Shown: positions 165 through 41,919 of the stretch, in pieces
How positions within the stretch are numbered: position 1 is the stretch's first letter
Layout: every line of letters begins with the position of its first letter
Assembly: GCA_947623175.1 (NCBI GenBank)
Contig: CANQGK010000022.1
Coordinates: forward strand, 1-41,919
DNA length: 41,919 nucleotides
DNA from: an uncultured Clostridia bacterium
Lineage (GTDB): Bacteria; Bacillota; Clostridia; Oscillospirales; Acutalibacteraceae
Direction: 5' to 3'
The notes under the pieces: model-generated
Database searches by the model: none
What the model was told of the DNA's origin: nothing
Seen by the model: the letters and a program-made list of their open reading frames with translations, nothing else
Position numbers and translations under genes: made by a program

Positions 165-1298
165 TCAGCCGAGGTTTTTGTAGACGTCTTCTTCGAAGCG
201 GCAGGCGGACAATGCGCCGGAGCCGCCATCGTAATATGAATTTTTCATATATACGGCAATGATTTTATTTTGGTCGTCCACCCAAAAATGCGTGCCGTAA
301 GCGCCGCTCCAGCCATAGGCTCCCTCGGGCAAATTTTTGTCCTTTAAAATAACCCGTACGCCGAGCCCCCAATTTTCGTTATTCCGCCAAAGGCGGTAGG
401 GCGTTTTCATTTTAAGCAGCGAATCTTCGCTCAAAATACGGACGCCGTTGTATTCGCCACCGTTTAAGAGCATCGAAGCAAAAGTCGCATATGCCTCCGC
501 CGTGCCCACAAGGCATGCTCCGCCGCTGAAATACTCAATATTCTCAAAGCGCTTACGATATAAATTATCGTTGGTATGCCCCGCGCCGTTTTCATCTCGA
601 TAATGCATTTTTACCGTGCGTTGCCACTGCTCGTCGGTGGGGGTACAGGTAATATCCGAAAGTCCGAGCGGCAAAAGAATATTTTGATCGATAAATTCGT
701 TGAACGGCATTTCCGTCACGATTTCCACAATTCGCGCCGCTAAGTCAAACGCCGCAACGCCGCTGTATGCCGCCATAGTATCGGGCATGAAATCAAGCAT
801 CAGATTTTTATCATACCATTCGGTTGCGGATTTTAAGCTTACGCGGTCCTTTTCGGTCATAGAATCGAACTGCTTATGGCCCACCTGCCCCGTAACTATG
901 CCGTTTGAATGCGTGAGCAGATTTACAATACGAAGAATGTCGCCTACGGGCTCACCCTTTACTATATTGCCGTTTTCGTCCATTTTGCCGACGTATTTAT
1001 TTTTAAATCCCGGGAAATATTTCGATATTTTATCGTTCAAAGAAAGCAGTCCGCGCTCCTCGCAGATAAGTACCGCCGCCGCCGTAATCGGCTTGGTCAT
1101 GGAAGCGAGGCGAAAAATCGCGTCCGACGCCAAGGGGATTTTATTTTCCATATCGGCATACCCTTCGCAAACGTCCGCCAAAACCTTGCCCTCCTGCATT
1201 ACAATCTCTCTTGCGCCCGCAACCCTTCCGCTTTCGATATCGTTAAGCAAGCGTTCTTTAAGCGCGATATTAAGGCTTTTTGCATTGATTTTTTTCAT
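165..1298 (-). CDS. Serine hydrolase of the beta-lactamase class C / esterase family
   Basis: A 377-residue protein of the penicillin-binding-protein-like serine hydrolase fold. The active-site Ser-x-x-Lys motif is SMTK at residues 66-69, the second motif YSG is at 178-180, and a GWSGAYGT stretch near the C terminus fits the third motif in its esterase-like form rather than the KTG of true beta-lactamases. No signal peptide or membrane segment is seen, so the enzyme is probably cytoplasmic. The start was placed at 1298 because GGAG lies at the right distance there; a longer reading to 1337 has no such site. Members of this family include esterases, D-aminopeptidases and beta-lactamases, so the substrate cannot be assigned. 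It is monocistronic, with its own terminator. Confidence 0.85.
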   Translation of the reverse strand: MKKINAKSLNIALKERLLNDIESGRVAGAREIVMQEGKVLADVCEGYADMENKIPLASDAIFRLASMTKPITAAAVLICEERGLLSLNDKISKYFPGFKNKYVGKMDENGNIVKGEPVGDILRIVNLLTHSNGIVTGQVGHKQFDSMTEKDRVSLKSATEWYDKNLMLDFMPDTMAAYSGVAAFDLAARIVEIVTEMPFNEFIDQNILLPLGLSDITCTPTDEQWQRTVKMHYRDENGAGHTNDNLYRKRFENIEYFSGGACLVGTAEAYATFASMLLNGGEYNGVRILSEDSLLKMKTPYRLWRNNENWGLGVRVILKDKNLPEGAYGWSGAYGTHFWVDDQNKIIAVYMKNSYYDGGSGALSACRFEEDVYKNLG

Positions 1299-13838: not shown

Positions 13839-13881
13839 CAAAATCAGAACCGGTATGGGCATACCGCGTTATAACTGTTTT

Positions 13882-14044
13882 CGATAGCTCTCCGCAAATG
13901 CGACAGTAAAACAAATCTTATTTCGTTTTACCAGCGGGACGCCTGCCGACGTCCTACTTCGGCGGCAGCCCCTTTTGCGGGCGGCATTTTCCTGCCGGAA
14001 TTAACATTCGCCCGTTACTGATGACTAACCGCGCCTCTATCTTT
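13882..14044 (-). promoter_or_regulatory. Lysine riboswitch (L box) controlling dapA
   Basis: On the minus strand this region has the marks of the L box: the 5' strand AAAGATAGAGGCGCGG with AGTCATCAGTAA, an internal GCCGAAGTAGGACG, and the closing strand GGAGAGCTATCG which pairs with the 5' strand. It is followed by a GGTATGCCCATACC hairpin (13851-13866), an intrinsic terminator and then dapA. Lysine binding would be expected to favour the terminator and lower dapA (and probably ung) expression. Confidence 0.9.
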
Positions 14045-14056
14045 AAAATTTATTAT

Positions 14057-14085: not shown

Positions 14086-14546
14086 CCCCTGTTTGCCGGC
14101 TTTCCGAAAAGCGCGTGTTTAACCTTTACAAGCGGCGGAAGCAGGGCCTTTCGCCACAGGCGGCGGAAGGGGTAGGAGTGCATAATGTAAAAGGTATAAA
14201 GGCGGTATTTCGCGCTTTTGAGGTTTACATACTTGCCGTCGCGGTAAAATTCCTTGAGAATGCCGATAACGGAGGTTTTTTTGACATTTTCGGTAAAGAA
14301 ATTATTGTCGCCGCGCATAATGAAGCGGTCGCTTTTTTGGGCGACTATGCGGTGCAATATAAACTTGTCCTTGCCGGGATACAGTACGACATCGCCTTTT
14401 TTGAGCGGGCGGTCGACGCGCTTTATTACGACGACGTCGCGGTGCTCTCTTAGCATCGGTCTCATGCTGTTGCCGGCGGTAAGCACCGAGATCTCGTCCG
14501 AGTCTCTGAGCGCTTCGCCGGCGGTTTTAAAGGTTTCGCAATTCAT
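14082..14546 (-). CDS. S24/S26 family peptidase of the RiPP-like operon
   Basis: A 154-residue signal-peptidase-like protein. The serine motif GNSMRPM places the nucleophile at Ser27, and the second motif FILHRIV has His65 where many signal peptidases have lysine, as in the SipW/ER-type branch. Unlike a normal signal peptidase there is no N-terminal membrane helix, which suggests a cytoplasmic or peripherally bound protease; the basic C-terminal part (residues 100-154) could touch the membrane. Its start overlaps the stop codon of the pqqD-like gene (TAATG), so it belongs to that operon. The likely job is removal of the leader from the modified precursor peptide. It could alternatively be a regulator-like member without protease activity. 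Confidence 0.75.
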   Translation of the reverse strand: MNCETFKTAGEALRDSDEISVLTAGNSMRPMLREHRDVVVIKRVDRPLKKGDVVLYPGKDKFILHRIVAQKSDRFIMRGDNNFFTENVKKTSVIGILKEFYRDGKYVNLKSAKYRLYTFYIMHSYPFRRLWRKALLPPLVKVKHALFGKPANRG

Positions 14547-34767: not shown

Positions 34768-37062
34768 TTAATGATTGGTGCGGTCGTCTCTTACCGGGGC
34801 ACCGTATATCGTAAACGGATATTCATCGGCAATCAAGTCATTATCGCCGCCTGTCGGGAATACATCGGTAACGGCGTTGTCTTCAATACCAAGAGGAGAG
34901 CCTTGCACGGCACCCACCGCTCTTGCCGTAGCACCTTGTGCGGCTTTGCAATTAATTACTGCATTGTCTCTAACATATCCTCTTGACCATGCCTGTTCGG
35001 TAACAAGCGCTACACCGACTGCAATACCGGCGGTGGGTGTAAGTTCGATTGTACCACCGGTTACAGTCAATACCGCTTCGTCATCGTCCGCCGTCCATGT
35101 TGTTGCTATGCCGAAGCAATAATCTTTAAAATAATTGCCCCAGCTTCCATAAACGGCGCCGCCGCGTCCACCGGAAACATCACCGGTAACCTCAATAGTA
35201 CCGCCGCTCATATTGATCTCGCCGCTGCCACGTGCTACCATAAGCGCGGCGCAGCCGTTGTTGGAGGATATGGTAATATTTCCGCTTGTCATATTAATCG
35301 TACCGTTGCCGGTAGCAAACGGAGTAACGGTGCCGTCGGCGGTTACCTTTGCGCCGTCAATATTCAAAACCGAACTTGAACCGTCGGCATAAGCAACGTA
35401 AGCATCACACTGCAAGGATTTCTCGTCTTTAGCGGTAACTACAGTACCCTCGCCAAAAGTAACGGTAGTATATTTACCGGCATAAACGGCGCTGTAATTG
35501 CCGCTTGCATAAGTGCCACTATATGAACCGTGAGCGGTATTTTCTACCGAAATATCTATATCTTCGAAAGTTACCGAAGCTTTTTTAGAGTTACTGCTTC
35601 CGGCTGCATAAATCGCCTGATTGCTACTCTTCGCCGTATCTAAAATCAGTTTTCCGTCTTTAGACGAATCGGTAAATTTAAGCGACGCGCCGGGGGCTAC
35701 GGAAATACCCTTACCGCTGCTGTTTTTAACGGTTAGATTATGACCGTTAAGGTCGATAGCGCCATTACCGGCAAGCGTGGCGTTTTCGTTCAATTCCATG
35801 TCTTCCACAAGTGAAAGTGAGGCTTCGTTGCCGGCTGTGATATCACCAAGCGCTTCTTTAAGCGCATCTGCGGAAGCAATGCGGTTATCTTTGGCTCTTA
35901 CGGAAAATTTGCTGAAATGGGTGGTGGTGAATATCAGCTCGCCGGTAGCGGGATCATATTTTACAAGCTCGGGCGCGGCGCCGGCGCCGTTGTAAACCAC
36001 CTCAACGCCGCTGAGTCCGGGCATAATTTTGGTGGTGATGGTGGCTTTGCCGTTAAGCTCGTGAATTTGAGCGCCGTCGACAAAGAGCAATACGTCTATC
36101 GTGGCTACGCCGACCTTTTCGTTTCCGGGAATAGTGGTATAATCCTTGTAAGCGGTCTCAACTTGACATTTTATTGTGTGACCGTCACTGCCGGATAAGG
36201 TAATCGCGTCGGCGGGGATTTCTATCTTAGTATCGCCTTCCTCACCCGCGGGCAGGGGCGCGTTGTACGGGTAGTTGAAGTTAAGCTCGCCGCTTGGCCT
36301 TTCACCGGCGGGGATATCCATATCGTCTGTTGTATCGGGGATGTGAATTTTGTCGTCGTCCATGGCGTCGAAGTCGTATTGATCGTTAAAGCTGTCCTTT
36401 TCGTAAGTATATTGCGAAGCGGTGAGCTTCACGCCAAGGTCGATATAGAGCGAACCGGTTGTATCGTCGGCCTCTCTTCCGTTATTAAGGTTGTAATCGT
36501 TGTCATTGTCCGTGGGCTTCCAATAAAGCACGATAGCGAACTGCTCAACGTCCTCCGGAGCTTTACTTGACGGCATAAGAACGCCGCTTTTCGCCATATC
36601 GGACAAATCGCCGTAGGTAAGCCCCAGCGCAGCCTCGCGCTCGCCCGAGAACTCGCCCTTGTAAAAGGCTACCTTGATGACGTCGGCAAGCGATTTTTTG
36701 ACGCCGTCGACCGTTACGGTGTTGTTGCCCATAATGCTCAGCGCCAATTTGTACTTGAGCGCGAGGGTTCCGACGTTTTCCGCCTTGAAGTTCTCATAGG
36801 TGATAACGCCCGGCTCCCACTTCATCTCGCCGCCGTCCTTATCGCGGAAAAGCGGAGTTGTTTCTTCTACCTTTTCATTCTCCACCTTGGCGTTGGAGTG
36901 ATAAAGCTCCACGTCAAGATTGCCCGCGACAATTTGGTTTCTGCCGCTTGTCACGCTGTCGGTAAACCATGCAAAGGTCGAGCCTATAAGCATAGCGACG
37001 CAGACGAGCAGAGAAATCATGCTCGCGAGCAATGATTTTTTGGTGTTTTTGGTTTTTGTCAT
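34768..37062 (-). CDS. TasA/camelysin-like surface protein with SipW-type signal and beta-helix
   Basis: A 764-residue exported protein. The N terminus has the SipW-dependent signal layout: basic start, hydrophobic core (SMISLLVCVAMLIGSTFAWF) and the invariant TSGRNQIVAGNLDVEL segment at about residues 38-53. Residues to about 230 form a camelysin/TasA-like beta domain; 230-400 is another beta-sandwich region. Residues about 410-740 form a right-handed beta-helix-like run with short repeats (GNGTINMTSGNITIS, GSGEINMSGGTIEVTG), as in adhesins. No LPXTG sorting motif is seen. The start at 37062 matches the paralogue at 41116. Its SD lies in a conserved hairpin, so translation is probably controlled by the upstream leader ORF. 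SipW itself is not in the window. Confidence 0.75.
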   Translation of the reverse strand: MTKTKNTKKSLLASMISLLVCVAMLIGSTFAWFTDSVTSGRNQIVAGNLDVELYHSNAKVENEKVEETTPLFRDKDGGEMKWEPGVITYENFKAENVGTLALKYKLALSIMGNNTVTVDGVKKSLADVIKVAFYKGEFSGEREAALGLTYGDLSDMAKSGVLMPSSKAPEDVEQFAIVLYWKPTDNDNDYNLNNGREADDTTGSLYIDLGVKLTASQYTYEKDSFNDQYDFDAMDDDKIHIPDTTDDMDIPAGERPSGELNFNYPYNAPLPAGEEGDTKIEIPADAITLSGSDGHTIKCQVETAYKDYTTIPGNEKVGVATIDVLLFVDGAQIHELNGKATITTKIMPGLSGVEVVYNGAGAAPELVKYDPATGELIFTTTHFSKFSVRAKDNRIASADALKEALGDITAGNEASLSLVEDMELNENATLAGNGAIDLNGHNLTVKNSSGKGISVAPGASLKFTDSSKDGKLILDTAKSSNQAIYAAGSSNSKKASVTFEDIDISVENTAHGSYSGTYASGNYSAVYAGKYTTVTFGEGTVVTAKDEKSLQCDAYVAYADGSSSVLNIDGAKVTADGTVTPFATGNGTINMTSGNITISSNNGCAALMVARGSGEINMSGGTIEVTGDVSGGRGGAVYGSWGNYFKDYCFGIATTWTADDDEAVLTVTGGTIELTPTAGIAVGVALVTEQAWSRGYVRDNAVINCKAAQGATARAVGAVQGSPLGIEDNAVTDVFPTGGDNDLIADEYPFTIYGAPVRDDRTNH

Positions 37063-37073
37063 GTTTTTTAACA

Positions 37074-37143
37074 CACTCCTATTCGATTTTTTCGGCATTT
37101 GGGGTTTAGACGTTACCCCGACAATGCCGTCAAAATCGGAGTG
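37074..37143 (-). promoter_or_regulatory. SD-sequestering hairpin of the first surface-protein gene
   Basis: Long stem-loop in the mRNA leader: CACTC pairs with GAGTG, CGATTTT with AAAATCG, CGGCATT with AATGCCG and GGGG with CCCC around an 11-base loop. The SD (AGGAG on the minus strand, 37076-37080) is in the outer stem and bulge. The stop of the leader ORF is three bases from the 5' base of the stem. The same structure and spacing recur at 41127-41196. Confidence 0.7.
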
Positions 37144-37146
37144 CGT

Positions 37147-37263
37147 CTATCCTGTGATTAAAATTCGGCTTCCTTTATGGGTGTTGACATTAGTCAATAT
37201 ACCCAATAGGGCGGATCTTTGCCCCCCCCCCATGGGATTTTTTGTCAATTGTGCAATTTTCAT
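37147..37263 (-). CDS. Leader peptide ORF 1 with a 10-G tract, 38 residues
   Basis: Starts with AGGAGG nine bases before the ATG. The product begins MKIAQLTKNPMGGGQRSALL and aligns with leader 2 (MKI-Q, K, GGG, AL-G, T-V). The glycines are encoded by ten G in a row (37222-37231). The stop TAG is three bases from the SD-sequestering hairpin. Gaining or losing one G would stop translation some tens of bases earlier. It is in the same frame as the main gene, separated by this stop codon. Likely role: translational attenuation of the downstream gene. Confidence 0.65.
   Translation of the reverse strand: MKIAQLTKNPMGGGQRSALLGILTNVNTHKGSRILITG
37222..37231. repeat. Homopolymer of 10 C (G on the coding strand) inside leader 1
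   Basis: Ten consecutive C. Tracts of this length are typical slippage sites; a matching tract of the same length lies in leader 2 at the same place. Confidence 0.9.
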
Positions 37264-37304
37264 AAGAGGAAGCCTCCTTTCTTTCATAGATTTTTTCGCC
37301 TTTC

Positions 37305-37398: not shown

Positions 37399-37573
37399 TT
37401 GGCTCCATCTGACGAGGGAGCTGTCAGCGTAGCTGACTGAGGGAGAGATTTTTTATTTTCAATTTCCTTTTATTTTTTGGTTTCATCTCGGCTTTACTTT
37501 TTCTCTCCCCTCGTCTTTTGCTTCGCAAAATCCACCCCCCTCGGCAGATGCAGGCAAGGCGCGCATGCGCGCG
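37399..37573. repeat. MITE-like 175-bp repeat, copy 1
   Basis: Begins TTGGCTCCATCTGACGAGGG and ends in GGCGCGCATGCGCGC. Terminal arms CATCTGACGAGGG and CCCTCGGCAGATG are imperfect inverted repeats, and a GTCAGC/GCTGAC hairpin is inside. It abuts the stop codon of the DUF559 gene. It contains no gene of its own. Confidence 0.85.
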
Positions 37574-37574
37574 G

Positions 37575-37937
37575 TTACAGCAAATCGAGAGATTTTTTAA
37601 CGACCAAATCAATATGTTCACATACGCCGTCGAAATTGCGATCAATATCCAAATTTGATATTCTTAAAACCGTTAAATCCATACTTTCTAATTCTTCTGT
37701 ACGAATACGATCTTTTTCTGCTTGTTCTTCGGTATAATGTCCGCCGCCGTCAAGTTCAATTACAAGTTTTGCCTTTGCACAGTAAAAATCTGCTATGTAA
37801 TTGCCGATAGATTTTTGCCGTTGAAAGCGTATAGGATATTCACGCAAAAAATTATACCACAATTTTCTTTCCCATGGCGTCATATTTTGCCGTAAAACTC
37901 TTGCAATCCGGATATTTCCTTTATTGTATTCTTTCAT
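37575..37937 (-). CDS. DUF559 (Vsr-like) endonuclease-domain protein
   Basis: A 120-residue protein matching the DUF559 pattern: RVLRQNMTPWERKLWYNF, then RFQRQKSIGNYIADFYC with Asp50 and KLVIELDGGGHY with Glu61 and Asp63. The fold is related to Vsr and very-short-patch repair nucleases. No activity is established for these small proteins. The SD is weak. The stop codon touches repeat copy 1, and the same junction recurs at 41884/41886 at the right edge, so the gene seems to travel or duplicate together with the repeat. Confidence 0.85.
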   Translation of the reverse strand: MKEYNKGNIRIARVLRQNMTPWERKLWYNFLREYPIRFQRQKSIGNYIADFYCAKAKLVIELDGGGHYTEEQAEKDRIRTEELESMDLTVLRISNLDIDRNFDGVCEHIDLVVKKSLDLL

Positions 37938-37959
37938 AAGCTTTTAATTCGACAATCCC

Positions 37960-38132
37960 TTGGCTCCATCTGACGAGGGAGCTGTCGGCGTAGCCGACTG
38001 AGGGAGAGATTTTTTATTTCAATTTCCTTTTATTTTTTGGTTTCATCTCAGCTTTACTTTTTCTCTCCCCTCGTCTTTTGCTCCGCAAAATCCACCCCCC
38101 TCGGCAGATGGGGGCAGGGCGCGCAAGCGCGC
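37960..38132. repeat. MITE-like 175-bp repeat, copy 2
   Basis: Same core as copy 1, nearly identical. It is followed by a 118-base spacer and copy 3, giving a tandem period of 291 bases. Confidence 0.85.
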
Positions 38133-38250
38133 AAAATCAAGGTGAAGAATGAAAAGTTTTACCGCTAAGAATTATTATAATCGAGTTTGCAGGCTTTGGC
38201 AACAGTAAAAGTTATATTTTCGTGCCGAAGTGCAAAAGCTTGACCTACCC
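38133..38250 (-). repeat. Conserved 118-bp spacer, copy 1, with promoter
   Basis: Repeated almost unchanged at 38426-38543 and 41593-41710. On the minus strand it carries TTGCCA-N17-TATAAT (-35 at 38197-38202, -10 at 38174-38179). A short open frame across it has no SD and is not called. Confidence 0.7.
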
Positions 38251-38425
38251 TTGGCTCCATCTGACGAGGGAGCTGTCGGCGTAGCCGACTGAGGGAGAGA
38301 TTTTTTATTTTCAATTTCCTTTTATTTTTTGGTTTCATCTCGGCTTTACTTTTTCTCTCCCCTCGTCTTTTGCTGCGCAAAAGCCACCCCCCCTCGGCAG
38401 ATGGGGGCAGGGCGCGCAAGCGCGC
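38251..38425. repeat. MITE-like 175-bp repeat, copy 3
   Basis: Same core; the tract before the right arm has seven C. Tandem with copies 2 and 4. Confidence 0.85.
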
Positions 38426-38543
38426 AAAATCAAGGTGAAGAATGAAAAGTTTTACCGCCAAGAATTATTATAATCGAGTTTACAGACTTTGGCAACAATA
38501 AAAGTTATATTCTCGTGCCGAAGTGCAAAAGCTTGACCTACCC
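38426..38543 (-). repeat. Conserved 118-bp spacer, copy 2, with promoter
   Basis: Carries TTGCCA-N17-TATAAT on the minus strand (-35 at 38490-38495, -10 at 38467-38472). Confidence 0.7.
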
Positions 38544-38715
38544 TTGGCTCCATCTGACGAGGGAGCTGTCAGCGTAAGCTGACTGAGGGAGAGATTTTTT
38601 ATTTCAATTTCCTTTTATTTTTGGGTTTCATCTCGGCTTTACCTTTTCTCTCCCCTCGTCTTTTGCTCCGCAAAAGCCACCCCCCTCGGCAGATGGGGGC
38701 AAGGCGCTGTCGCGC
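38544..38715. repeat. MITE-like repeat, copy 4
   Basis: Same core; its right end differs (GGCGCTGTCGCGC), a sequence also seen near the partial MITE at about 34596-34608. Confidence 0.8.
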
Positions 38716-38753
38716 ACGCAGGGAAATTCGGATATAATGAGCTCGCTCTGCGC

Positions 38754-38899
38754 AAAGCCTCCCTTGCCTAAAGGGAGGGGGACCAACCGTGAGGTTGGTG
38801 GTGAGATATCGATTACCCGTGAGGCTGAGAGCTATGCTTTAGCGCCGTTAATCCCTCCGTCGGCTACGCCGCCACCTCCCTTTAGGCAAGGGAGGCTTT
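38754..38899. mobile_element. MITE of a second family, 146 bp with perfect 25-bp inverted ends
   Basis: Left end AAAGCCTCCCTTGCCTAAAG continuing GGAGG, and right end its exact inverse. The interior has an ACCAAC...GTTGGT hairpin and no gene. No clear target-site duplication is visible. Confidence 0.8.
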
Positions 38900-38998: not shown

Positions 38999-41116
38999 TT
39001 AATATTTTGAGGTTACAACCCATTGACCGTCCTGTTCGGTGACGGTGCTGTATGTTGCAAGGTAAGGAGTGGGATTAAATGAATATGTGCCGGAAACGAT
39101 AATTACCTTGCCATTTATCGCATCAATATTACCGGTTGAAGTGCAATTGCGCAGTATGAAAATCGCACCTGCATTGGTGCTGTGAATAGCGGATTTAGTC
39201 GATTTTGCTTTCATAGTACAATTCTCAAGAATAATATGCGAGTTACCCGTAACTTCAATACCGTACTGTGTAACTGTACTGCCAAAAGCAAGGATACCAT
39301 TTCGGATAAACAAGTTACTGTTGCTTTGTACTTCTATTCCATTTCCGCGGGACCTTATAAAATTTAGTGTATTATTATTTAGATCAATAATGGTGTCCTT
39401 TGCAACAGTTAACCATGATGCACTTACTGATTTTGATGTCAGATAAACTTTTAATGAGTCATCTCTAAAATAACTATTAGCAATGCTGGTATTGTTTACT
39501 GCCTTATATCCAGCTGTATTCAAATTTTCCAAACGATCTGCCTCAATATTTCCCCACGCAATCCTAAACTCCGAGAAATGCTTCACGTACATGGTGATAA
39601 CGCCGGTGTCTATATCGTAGGTATAGCCTTCGTCAGTCCAGCTGCCGCCGTTGTTTAACGTTTCGCCCGCGTGGTCTACGGTGACGTCAAACAGTCCGCC
39701 GCCGATATGCACGCTTACGCGGTACATTTTTTCGGCTACGTTTGCAACCTTTTTATATTTTTCATCCACTAACGAAATATCGAGGTTATAGGAGTGATCG
39801 TCGTCGGCGTCAAGCGTCTTGACTACGAGGAAAACTTGCTTGCCTGCCAAATCGGTCACGTTCTCGGTGGGGATGTCCGCCGTGATATTTTCGTCGCCTA
39901 TGCTGTAGAACTGCTGACTGTCCTCGTTTTGCGGTTCCGAAAGGGTGCCGGGAATTTTGGTTCCGTCGGGTACTTCGGGAACCGTCCAGGTTATCTTAAA
40001 GAGCGAAAAATGCGAAACGTAGAGCGAGAGCATTCCGGTCGCTTCGTCGTATTTAAAGCCTTCCTTCTCCCAGCCGCCGTCGTTTGCAAGCACGGTGCCG
40101 GCGTGGCTTACCGCAACGTCCGTCTTGCCCGCGCCGATATTGAGATTTATGCGGAACATTTTTGCGCCCGTGGCTGTAATGACGTGATCCGCCTGGTCGT
40201 GGAGCGAAATATCCAAATCGTACGAGGTTTCGGTAGCGCCGATAGTCTCAACCACCAGCGAAATCTCGGTTATGTCGGAGCCTAAACTGTCAGCGGGAAC
40301 GTCGGCAGAAATCTCGGCGTCGCCGATATGATAATATCCGTTGTCTAATTCGGCTATATCGTTTTTCTTAGTCTCGGCATTTACCGCGCCGGAGAGGGTT
40401 TTGCCGGTAAATACGGGAAGCTCCAAGCCTGCGTCGTAGTTTTTATCGAAGCTGTCGGACTCGTGAGGAGTCTGCGTAGCGTCAAGATTAACGCCGAGCT
40501 CAATCCACAGCGGCAAGCCGTCGCTTGATTTTTTGCCGTTGTTAAGGTTGTAATCGTTATCCTTGTCGGTCGGCTCCCAATAGAGTATCACGGCGAATTT
40601 TTGCTCGTCGCCGGGCGCCATATCGTCGTTTACTTTTACAAAATCGCGAATGTTATTTGTAAAGCTTTGCCCGAGTGCGGCGTCACGTCCGCCCGCGGCT
40701 TCGAAATGATCCTCTAAAATCGCGACCTTGATAACGTCGGCGAGGGATTTTTGATCGGTGCCGACCGTAACGGTGTTGTTGCCCCAGACGTTCATGGCAA
40801 GTCTGTACTTTAAGGCAAGGGATCCCGCGTTTTTGACCGTGAAATTCTCATACGCCATAACGCCCGGCTCCCAGAGGATCTCCGTGCCGTCGGCGTTTAA
40901 AAACAGCTTGGTGTCGCTGTCGACCTTGTCGGCGGCTGTCATGCCCGTGCCGTGGTAAAGCTCGATATCAAGGTTGCCGGCGGTGATTTTGTTTCGTCCG
41001 CTCGTGACCGAATCGGTAAACCACGCAAAGGTGGTGCCCACAAGCATTGCTATACAGACAAGCAACGAGAGCATGCTCATAAACAACGCTTTTTTGGTAG
41101 CTTTGGTTTTTGTCAT
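38999..41116 (-). CDS. TasA/camelysin-like surface protein, second paralogue
   Basis: A 705-residue exported protein, paralogous to the gene at 34768-37062 over the first 230 residues: hydrophobic core MLSLLVCIAMLVGTTFAWF and the invariant TSGRNKITAGNLDIELYHG. Then two tandem copies of a beta module (about residues 265-380 and 400-515), each starting ADIP and ending near HFSLFKITW and HFSEFRIAW. The C-terminal 180 residues look like a short beta-helix (TVAKDTIIDLNNNTLNF, NSHIILENCTMKAKSTKSAI). No cell-wall sorting motif is seen. The SD is inside the conserved hairpin. Confidence 0.75.
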   Translation of the reverse strand: MTKTKATKKALFMSMLSLLVCIAMLVGTTFAWFTDSVTSGRNKITAGNLDIELYHGTGMTAADKVDSDTKLFLNADGTEILWEPGVMAYENFTVKNAGSLALKYRLAMNVWGNNTVTVGTDQKSLADVIKVAILEDHFEAAGGRDAALGQSFTNNIRDFVKVNDDMAPGDEQKFAVILYWEPTDKDNDYNLNNGKKSSDGLPLWIELGVNLDATQTPHESDSFDKNYDAGLELPVFTGKTLSGAVNAETKKNDIAELDNGYYHIGDAEISADVPADSLGSDITEISLVVETIGATETSYDLDISLHDQADHVITATGAKMFRINLNIGAGKTDVAVSHAGTVLANDGGWEKEGFKYDEATGMLSLYVSHFSLFKITWTVPEVPDGTKIPGTLSEPQNEDSQQFYSIGDENITADIPTENVTDLAGKQVFLVVKTLDADDDHSYNLDISLVDEKYKKVANVAEKMYRVSVHIGGGLFDVTVDHAGETLNNGGSWTDEGYTYDIDTGVITMYVKHFSEFRIAWGNIEADRLENLNTAGYKAVNNTSIANSYFRDDSLKVYLTSKSVSASWLTVAKDTIIDLNNNTLNFIRSRGNGIEVQSNSNLFIRNGILAFGSTVTQYGIEVTGNSHIILENCTMKAKSTKSAIHSTNAGAIFILRNCTSTGNIDAINGKVIIVSGTYSFNPTPYLATYSTVTEQDGQWVVTSKY

Positions 41117-41126
41117 GTTTTTTACA

Positions 41127-41196
41127 CACTCCTATTCGATTTTTTCGGCATTGGGGATTGAGACGTTACCCCGACAATGCCGTCAAAATCGGAGTG
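41127..41196 (-). promoter_or_regulatory. SD-sequestering hairpin of the second surface-protein gene
   Basis: Same stem order as at 37074-37143 (CACTC/GAGTG, CGATTTT/AAAATCG, CGGCATT/AATGCCG, GGGG/CCCC). The loop and flanks vary slightly, the stems do not. The leader-2 stop codon is again three bases from its 5' base. Confidence 0.7.
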
Positions 41197-41199
41197 CGT

Positions 41200-41301
41200 C
41201 TATGCGGATAAAAATTTGCTATCGACTTTGGTTATTTTGCCGAACAAGGCGGGGTATACCCCCCCCCCGTGGGAAATTTTGACAATTTGTTCAATTTTCA
41301 T
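41200..41301 (-). CDS. Leader peptide ORF 2 with a 10-G tract, 33 residues
   Basis: SD AGGAGG is nine bases before the ATG, exactly as for leader 1. The product begins MKIEQIVKISHGGGVYPALF. The GGG is encoded by ten G (41259-41268). With 9 or 11 G the frame would meet an early stop (TAA or TAG). It is not in frame with the main gene, which excludes a simple N-terminal extension as explanation. Confidence 0.65.
   Translation of the reverse strand: MKIEQIVKISHGGGVYPALFGKITKVDSKFLSA
41259..41268. repeat. Homopolymer of 10 C (G on the coding strand) inside leader 2
   Basis: Ten consecutive C at the position matching the tract in leader 1, although the flanking bases differ. Confidence 0.9.
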
Positions 41302-41339
41302 AAGAGTATACCTCCTCTTGTTTTTATTTCGCCTTTCGC

Positions 41340-41379: not shown

Positions 41380-41417
41380 CCGCCCTCCGCAGAAGAAAGT
41401 TTATCATTTGTCTAAAA

Positions 41418-41592
41418 TTAGCTCCATCTGACGAGGGAGCTGTCAGCGTAAGCCGACTGAGGGAGAGATTTTTTATTTTCAATTTCCTTTTATTTTTGGG
41501 TTTCATCTCGGCTCTGCCTTTTCTCTCCCCTCGTCTTTTGCTTCGCAAAAGCCACCCCCCTCGGCAGATGGGGGCAAGGCGCGCATGCGCGC
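41418..41592. repeat. MITE-like 175-bp repeat, copy 5
   Basis: Begins TTAGCTCCATCTGACGAGGG, otherwise the same core. It lies immediately upstream of the leader hairpin of the second surface-protein gene. Confidence 0.85.
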
Positions 41593-41710
41593 AAAATCAA
41601 GGTGAAGAATGAAAAATTTTACCACCAAGAATTATTATAATCGAGTTTACAGGCTTTGGCAACAATAAAAATTATATTCTCGTGCCGAAGTGCAAAAGCT
41701 TTATCAACCC
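41593..41710 (-). repeat. Conserved 118-bp spacer, copy 3, with promoter
   Basis: Minus-strand TTGCCA-N17-TATAAT (-35 at 41657-41662, -10 at 41634-41639). It points through repeat copy 5 towards leader ORF 2 and could drive that gene. Confidence 0.7.
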
Positions 41711-41884
41711 TTGGCTCCATCTGACGAGGGAGCTGTCGGCGTAGCCGACTGAGGGAGAGACTTTTTATTTCAATTTCCTTTTATTCTTTGGTTTCATCTC
41801 GGCTTTACCTTTTCTCTCCCCTCGTCTTTTGCTTCGCAAAATCCACCCCCCTCGGCAGATGGGGGCAAGGCGCGCATGCGCGCG
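41711..41884. repeat. MITE-like 175-bp repeat, copy 6
   Basis: Same core; its right end and the next bases are identical to the junction of copy 1 with the DUF559 gene. Confidence 0.85.
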
Positions 41885-41885
41885 G

Positions 41886-41919
41886 TTACAGCAAATCGAG
41901 AGATTTTTTAACGACCAAA
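41886..41919 (-). CDS. C-terminal end of a second DUF559 gene, cut by the window edge
   Basis: The minus strand reads LVVKKSLDLL then stop, identical to the end of the DUF559 gene at 37575-37937. Only 34 bases are inside the window, so integrity of the rest is unknown. Confidence 0.75.
   Translation of the reverse strand, partial: LVVKKSLDLL

Follow-up and report, generated by a model that had tools for sequence, protein, structure and literature searches.

A poly-G leader cassette in front of surface-protein genes of uncultured Clostridia: a probable slippage-controlled translational attenuator

In the genome of an uncultured gut Clostridia bacterium, surface-protein genes are preceded by a repeated cassette, in which a short leader ORF with a G tract stops at a hairpin that holds the Shine-Dalgarno (SD) sequence of the surface-protein gene. 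Judged from its sequence, this unit is probably a slippage-controlled translational attenuator: slippage at the G tract would determine if the ribosome gets as far as the hairpin and thereby uncovers the SD. An earlier note on this DNA had predicted a slippage switch that acts by translational attenuation. The leader ORF, the G tract as a frame switch and the placement of the stop are borne out by the analysis presented here, while the assumption that 11 G mean off had to be qualified and the claim of novelty corrected.

Two leader cassettes in the window

The window is the whole stretch of DNA that was analysed (41,919 nt). The first of its two cassettes, copy 1, is composed as follows (the basis of each assignment is given in brackets):

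37273-37278, minus strand: SD sequence AGGAGG of leader copy 1 (sequence; most copies have the same or a similar one)
37147-37263, minus strand: leader ORF of copy 1, 38 codons plus TAG (ORF, frame conservation)
37261-37263, minus strand: ATG of leader copy 1 (sequence)
37222-37231, minus strand: 10-G tract in leader copy 1, the proposed slippage site (sequence)
37147-37149, minus strand: TAG stop of leader copy 1 (sequence)
37136-37148, minus strand: element 2, AGACGCACTCCGA, forming the 5' arm of the hairpin, containing the anti-SD CTCC and overlapping the leader stop (fold, covariation)
37123-37129, minus strand: 5' strand of the inner helix, CGGCATT (fold)
37108-37121, minus strand: element 3, the loop segment TCGGGGTAACGTCT, complementary to element 2 and an alternative partner by which the SD would be left free (pairing tests)
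37093-37099, minus strand: 3' strand of the inner helix, AATGCCG (fold)
37071-37080, minus strand: element 4, the SD of the surface gene, AGGAGTGTGT, at the 3' end of the hairpin, paired with element 2 in the minimum-energy fold (fold)
37060-37062, minus strand: start codon of the 764-aa surface gene (sequence)
34768-37062, minus strand: surface protein 1, 764 aa, TIGR04088 and PF12389 (profile matches over the cut-off)

The leader of copy 1 reads MKIAQLTKNPMGGGQRSALLGILTNVNTHKGSRILITG. Every element which the earlier note had listed for this copy is present, namely the 38-codon leader, AGGAGG, the ten G, the stop and the hairpin burying the SD. The stop also adjoins the stem as claimed, but not at a distance of three bases, for its last base is the first paired base of the stem. 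The region 37030-37290 (minus strand) folds with -82.5 kcal/mol (z -6.35), and none of 200 shuffles was as good. If the tract is made one G shorter or longer, the stop moves from -2 to -49 or -45, respectively, relative to the stem base, and thus at copy 1 the leader with 9 or 11 G ends tens of bases early, as had been predicted.

Two other explanations of this arrangement were discarded. That the leader is the ordinary N-terminus of the surface protein is ruled out by its own stop and the separate SD. Further, the stem could be read as an intrinsic terminator, as in Streptococcus gallolyticus. No terminator-like site was found between 36900 and 37700, a region searched at copy 1 only, where SD and ATG follow the stem instead, and this reading was therefore rejected at copy 1.

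Copy 2 has the same layout, its sequence is partly different, and its fold has a z of -5.13:

41311-41316, minus strand: SD of leader copy 2 (sequence)
41200-41301, minus strand: leader ORF of copy 2, 33 codons plus TAG, peptide MKIEQIVKISHGGGVYPALFGKITKVDSKFLSA (ORF; a longer translation from an upstream TTG start is possible)
41259-41268, minus strand: 10-G tract of copy 2 (sequence)
41189-41201, minus strand: element 2 (5' arm, anti-SD) of copy 2 (fold, pairing tests)
41129-41133, minus strand: SD AGGAG of surface protein 2, within the hairpin (sequence, fold)
38999-41116, minus strand: surface protein 2, 705 aa, TIGR04088 and PF12389 (profile matches over the cut-off)

Near-identical MITE-like repeats (CTCCATCTGACGAGGGAGCTGTC...), recognized by eye, flank the leader copies at 37420-38760 and 41400-41919. 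Elsewhere in the window, a lysine riboswitch aptamer (85.3 bits) is located at 13877-14047 on the minus strand.

Copies across the host genome and their surface proteins

The host genome (2.38 Mb, 54 contigs) was searched with the copy-1 element. This resulted in 35 matches and, after extraction, in 32 loci having a leader with a G tract, one of which (C6:84486) is degenerate. Since the main gene was absent from the fetched stretch at C17:149 and C35:2558, these two loci were excluded from all counts over 44 copies. The 46 copies entered were in this way reduced to 44 analysed ones, 30 own copies and 14 from eight other genomes. The tracts comprise 9 to 13 G in the 32 own copies, of which two are interrupted, and 8 to 15 G in the 14 others. 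On both strands of the host genome, there are 34 runs of at least nine G, 30 inside leaders and four elsewhere (totals matched to the known tracts; the places of the runs were only partly listed), and G runs in leaders are thus present beyond chance. Around the tract, most own copies contain the motif ALLGKLTDF. Both copies with an interrupted tract, C38:772 and C38:14724, are in frame.

The four runs outside leaders are L127 (C2:86125), L128 (C2:93363), L129 (C12:39592) and L130 (C5:66189). At L127 an open frame continues past the tract, and this is possibly a classical in-gene phase-variable locus. Several leader cassettes were found at contig ends.

Both proteins encoded in the window match TIGR04088 (SipW-dependent-type signal peptide) and PF12389 (camelysin/TasA-like N-terminal domain) over the cut-off. 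SipW-type N-termini were matched 40 times in the host genome, once weakly (C14:59658), and 31 of the matches belong to leader copies. Matches without a leader copy are located at contig ends at C24, C34, C44:14888, C36, C14:1 and C49. The gene at C5:101444 has a plain SD and no such leader, and C47:28, which starts at a contig end, has a plain and nearly identical SD sequence. The surface-protein paralogues have a common N-terminus and differ in length and in their last 45 residues. A SipW-type signal peptidase (TIGR02228, 64.6 bits, over the cut-off) is encoded at C14:62315-62803, near the leader copies C14:58613 and C14:61394. A weak signal-peptidase-like match to the same profile (38.7 bits, below the cut-off) was seen in the window at 14256-14498 on the minus strand.

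Copies in other genomes

At E <= 1e-4, near DNA similarity to copy L013 was detected in none of 59 relatives, 36 of which are congeners, and copies in other genomes were therefore sought by architecture patterns. With the pattern used for the genus and order scans (SD, ATGAAR, G8), one homologue, G063, was found among 69 other genomes of the genus list, and two, G350 and G297, both belonging to other families, in an order-wide sample of 294 other genomes. A contig collection with one genome per species yielded 14 pattern matches, of which seven are real, all titled Clostridia or Oscillospiraceae; for five of these seven, the titles indicate rabbit, roe deer, water deer and goat, and two appear to be G063 and G297, as the match coordinates are identical. 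In total, 14 copies in eight genomes were found outside the host, among them four tandem copies within 9 kb in G368 and four copies in G362. The distribution of the cassette is patchy. Since the scan patterns require particular SD, start or leader letters and seven or eight G, divergent copies or copies with short tracts would be missed. No additional genome with the cassette was present in a class-level sample of 391 genomes including the host, and no match was obtained in viral contigs scanned with a 22-base stem pattern.

Chance matches were set aside at the order level (L076, L079), in the contig collection (7 of the 14: L088, L091, L095, L096, L098, L099 and L100) and among further pattern matches (L105, L106, L111, L116, L121). 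The loci matched at the class level in G653, G681, G667, G634, G395 and G399 were read and differ from the cassette. In G554, a genome of the same class, 9 to 12 G follow MKMFKMTT-like starts at eight places (L172, L180, L183, L185, L187, L189, L191, L193). At seven of the eight a long surface-type frame (MKMFKMTTGGGQALL...) comes after the tract, at L185 there is no long frame before the stretch ends, and three of the eight are in frame. This is an in-gene version resembling the leader peptide, with the tract at the N-terminus of a surface-type gene; it represents a related idea and a different cassette.

Some peculiarities of individual loci should be mentioned. At L122 a c-di-GMP-I riboswitch (386-467, minus strand, 60.6 bits) is located approximately 3.4 kb from the four-unit tandem cluster of leaders and surface genes, on the opposite strand. 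The G368 copy at L122:6885-7037 is in frame, yet its surface gene stops after 50 aa. In the type-B copies L048, L077 and L078 all three post-tract frames are open to the hairpin, and one or two pass through to near the main SD. The three frames of the type-B copy L093 behave differently: the first stop is at the stem base in one and within the hairpin in another, while the third passes through.

Reading frame and stop of the leader

The sequence marks of the leader support that it is a translated ORF. In 20 own copies pN/pS was 0.48 in the leader frame versus 0.98 and 1.10 in the shifted frames, with the caveat that RNA pairing may constrain the same bases. In an alignment of 30 rows, every gap in the post-tract part of the leader has a length divisible by three, while gaps in the hairpin are mostly 1, 2, 10 or 20 (rows and not events were counted, and the limits of the alignment columns were set by eye). 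An exception to the frame conservation is the own copy C8:43058 with a one-base gap before the tract. Comparison between paralogues and between species revealed that the copies differ in tract length, with the rest of the frame being kept.

To locate the leader stop, the anti-SD CTCC was determined in each copy (the anchors at C6:84486, C35:8523 and G297 were set by hand), and the three frames behind the tract were each read to their first stop. In all 44 copies one of the frames first stops 6-12 nt 5' of the anti-SD, compared to 11.8% per copy in dinucleotide shuffles, and in 37 of the 44 a stop is present at 7 or 8 nt (3.5% per copy in such shuffles); these counts are not independent, because 30 of the copies are duplicated relatives within one genome. 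The stop codons at the hairpin side are TAG, TAA or TGA across the copies, and therefore it is the stop function that is kept and not the letters of the RNA. The earlier claims of a real leader ORF and of a stop set against the anti-SD are in agreement with these data. Homologues with a freely broken leader frame, which had been named as an argument against the switch, were not seen among the 44 copies, each of which keeps one frame ending at the hairpin.

The assembled tract selects the hairpin-stop frame in 26 of 44 copies (22/30 own and 4/14 other copies). With C17:149 (in frame) and C35:2558 (out of frame) added, 23 of 32 own copies are in frame. In G350 and G297 the assembled frame passes through the hairpin. 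Most of the genomes behind the named loci are labelled metagenome assemblies, in which homopolymer length is error-prone, and thus any single off-frame call may be noise.

According to the earlier note, 9 as well as 11 G lead to an early stop. Among the own copies, this is correct for the shorter side: one G fewer results in an early stop in 30 of 30, while 15.5 are expected from synonymous resampling. It is correct for only half of them on the longer side, where one G more results in an early stop in 15 of 30 (18.1 expected); the remaining 15 comprise 13 with a stop shortly behind the anti-SD and two with a stop further on. Based on these sequences, an OFF state on the shorter side looks selected, albeit among related copies. 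There is no sign of selection for OFF with one G more, since early stops do not exceed the expectation, and 11 G need not mean off, as half of the own copies then have no early stop.

The SD hairpin and its alternative pairing

In the minimum-energy fold from the tract to the main start, the SD is paired with element 2 in 38 of 44 copies. Six folds are without SD:anti-SD pairing (C28, C39, G362:C40, G366, G350 and G297), and for this reason CTCC served as the anchor in the further analyses. Comparison of the copies indicates that the SD:anti-SD pairing covaries. In 41 unique sequences, the pair next to GGAG/CTCC is A-U in 25, G-U in six, C-G in four, G-C in three and U-G in one, with two being unpaired, a result not reached by any of 500 shuffles. 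The next SD:anti-SD pair is also above its shuffles and the three outermost are not; over all nine pairs, 295 of 369 cells are paired, the outermost pairs being weak.

When a ribosome at the in-frame (ON) stop was modelled by blocking a ribosome-sized stretch (footprint length from a textbook value), the mean probability of an unpaired SD increased from 0.05 to 0.47 over the 44 copies. The modelled gain in SD accessibility was above 0.3 in 31 copies and 0.3 or less in 13, with practically none in C8:43058 and G366.

Element 2 can also pair with element 3. This pairing beats shuffled loops at p <= 0.05 in 41 of 44 copies (mean z -3.1), element 3 being located by best match, which favours pairing, with equal freedom given to the shuffles. 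Two-sided changes were found at five of six outer pairs, and 207 of 246 outer cells are paired. Examples of covariation are AGACGC/GCGTCT, AGATGC/GCATCT and AACTGC/GCAGTT, and, in the inner part of one copy, CTTTGG/CCAAAG. From prediction and covariation only, the 2:3 and 2:4 pairings should be mutually exclusive, and 2:3 should free the SD. The inner helix CGGCATT:AATGCCG is compatible with 2:4, giving a hairpin with a hidden SD, or, as a pseudoknot, with 2:3, leaving the SD free. If nested folds only are considered, the minimum-energy fold is more stable than the best SD-free one by 1.1 to 12.7 kcal/mol, and by approximately 7 kcal/mol or more in 36 of 44 copies. The 2:3 pairing is not explained by the simple switch model.

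An additional pairing concerns the SD and start region of the leader itself (37261-37275), which is complementary to the 3' end of the leader (37166-37180, minus strand; GGCTTCC/GGAAGCC). It beats shuffles in 29 of 44 copies, which comprise 25 of the 30 own copies and those of all four type-B genomes (G366, G063, G350 and G297), whereas G362, G368, G363 and G365 lack it in all of their ten copies. The leader may thus gate itself, which would be an additional, optional layer and not a defining part of the cassette.

At the gathering score, no Rfam family matched the element, either in the window or in seven loci that were submitted; one microRNA match below the threshold was disregarded.

Proposed mechanism and alternative explanations

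We infer slippage in living cells, the direction of its effect and the role of the 2:3 pairing from this architecture, and propose the following mechanism. With an in-frame tract, a ribosome terminating at the leader stop would cover element 2, the SD would be exposed, and the surface gene would be ON. With one G fewer, the ribosome would in most own copies depart approximately 50 nt before this stop, the hairpin would close, and the gene would be OFF. With one G more, the outcome would differ among the own copies: some would stop early (OFF), while in about half the ribosome would terminate beyond the anti-SD and thereby probably open the hairpin too. By pairing with element 2, element 3 could form a local hairpin or, combined with the inner helix, a pseudoknot; either structure would keep the SD unpaired and may hold it open after the ribosome has left. 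Replication slippage at the G tract would make the state heritable and reversible, and since some 30 loci would switch independently of one another, the surface coat would be combinatorial.

The same DNA could be explained in other ways. Long G runs are slippery, and slippage by RNA polymerase or the ribosome could be constitutive, so that every cell contains a fixed fraction of product per frame and tract length only tunes the level. The 18 of 44 assembled tracts outside the hairpin-stop frame would then be harmless, since slippage at expression supplies the frame. However, the own copies favour one frame (22 of the 30 analysed, which are not independent), copies with different tract ends (AG11, CG10, CG13) keep the frame, off-frame early stops exceed the expectation on one side, and both interrupted-tract copies, although only two, are in frame. 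We regard constitutive slippage as unlikely. Slightly lower still we rate the idea of a coupling device that does not switch, in which leader translation serves as a readout of general translation or growth, with the G run being merely tolerated Gly-Gly-Gly coding. The conservation of the leader peptide around the tract, seen as ALLGKLTDF in most own copies, would suit it, and off-frame tract lengths could be assembly errors. On the other hand, glycine has four codons, yet 30 of the 34 runs of at least nine G are in leaders, and 8 to 15 G stand at the same place in 14 of 14 other copies, in both frame states, although searches requiring seven or eight G favour such recurrence.

An untranslated leader could also act through mRNA decay or Rho-dependent polarity, with exposure to RNases or Rho as the decisive step and the SD hairpin being secondary; indeed, early-stop frames leave up to approximately 50 nt and the hairpin untranslated. 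This fits poorly with the SD itself being the covarying partner of the 5' arm, with a stop 6-12 nt before the anti-SD in every one of the 44 copies and with the lack of an intrinsic terminator at copy 1, and we consider it as improbable as the coupling device. The same low rank is given to a reversed logic, according to which the nascent RNA by default forms the 2:3 hairpin or pseudoknot with a free SD, and a ribosome at the stop disrupts this pairing in favour of 2:4, whereby the gene is shut. The 2:3 pairing is local and would form first, and in its support count the 41 of 44 copies beating shuffled loops and the two-sided changes at five of six outer pairs. Against this stand the energies, which favour the best fold over any nested SD-free one by 1.1 to 12.7 kcal/mol, and the consideration that a ribosome at the stop also blocks 2:4.

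Returning to the slippage-controlled attenuator, it is tempting to go one step further, and we lean slightly towards a bank of about 30 independent, heritable, ribosome-gated RNA switches, in which poly-G slippage in the leader sets if a terminating ribosome displaces an anti-SD that otherwise alternates between the SD and a decoy strand resembling it (pseudoknot versus hairpin), and which together produce a combinatorial TasA-like coat in an uncultured gut lineage. If this is true, phase variation resides in a detachable and reusable control cassette rather than being built into each gene, and the same leader, tract and RNA switch front dozens of divergent surface proteins; thus, copying the cassette could make new genes switchable. 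Cell-to-cell diversity of the surface would be predicted in uncultured gut Clostridia, and the state of the switch would be measurable from metagenome reads as the G length of each leader. Last but not least, the cassette would offer a compact natural model for a terminating ribosome that operates an RNA switch.

Comparison with known systems

In its RNA logic, the cassette resembles the erm and cat translational attenuators, which comprise a leader ORF, a hairpin-buried SD and alternative segment pairing, and respond to drug-stalled ribosomes. The cassette described here shares with them the leader ORF before an SD-sequestering hairpin and a mutually exclusive pairing predicted to free the SD. 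In contrast to stalling by a drug, the position of the stop, set by the tract, would be decisive here. In IncI-alpha repY/repZ and in R1 tap/repA, translation of a leader opens a structure in which the downstream SD is hidden, and in IncI-alpha a pseudoknot favours translation. The opening of such a structure by leader translation is a common feature, but those systems are plasmid-borne, under antisense RNA control and not known to contain a repeat tract. If our interpretation is correct, this would be, to our knowledge, the first slippage-driven switch acting through translational attenuation.

The short upstream ORF of Escherichia coli iraD is coupled to a gene with an SD that RNA structure sequesters (PMC5574718). 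Unlike our cassette, iraD is CsrA-regulated, its ORF stop overlaps the main start, and the accessible part of that paper mentions no repeat tract. In Bifidobacterium breve, slippage at a poly-G tract in the first structural gene turns sortase pili on and off (PMC9187656). This is likewise a G-tract switch for surface structures of a gut bacterium, but, as far as the accessible text of that paper goes, it is the frame of the protein and not of a leader that is switched.

The remark in the earlier note that no described system of exactly this form was known to its author needs correction in view of pil1 and pil3 of Streptococcus gallolyticus, a leader-peptide slippage switch that controls pili and is backed by genetic evidence (Danne et al. 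2014, PMC3894217). According to the accessible part of this paper, the leader ORF contains GCAGA repeats and the hairpin is an intrinsic transcription terminator. A leader stop 4 bp before or inside the hairpin is associated with high expression, and a stop 49 bp before it (39 in a figure legend) with low expression. In both cases the repeat number in a leader ORF moves the stop relative to a hairpin and surface structures are controlled, and the geometry is strikingly alike. The slippage-leader principle is therefore not new, since pil1 works in this way. As far as the two can be likened by layout and from that part of the paper, the cassette differs in its poly-G tract, its SD-sequestering hairpin without a terminator signature at copy 1, its alternative pairing and its approximately 30 loci per genome. 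Among the best matches listed when open-access journal papers were searched for the present combination or its parts, no paper describing this combination was recognizable by title or by the start of its abstract. In summary, what is new compared to S. gallolyticus is the SD hairpin as the output, poly-G as the input, the number of some thirty loci within a single genome, the alternative RNA pairing and the presence in uncultured Clostridia.
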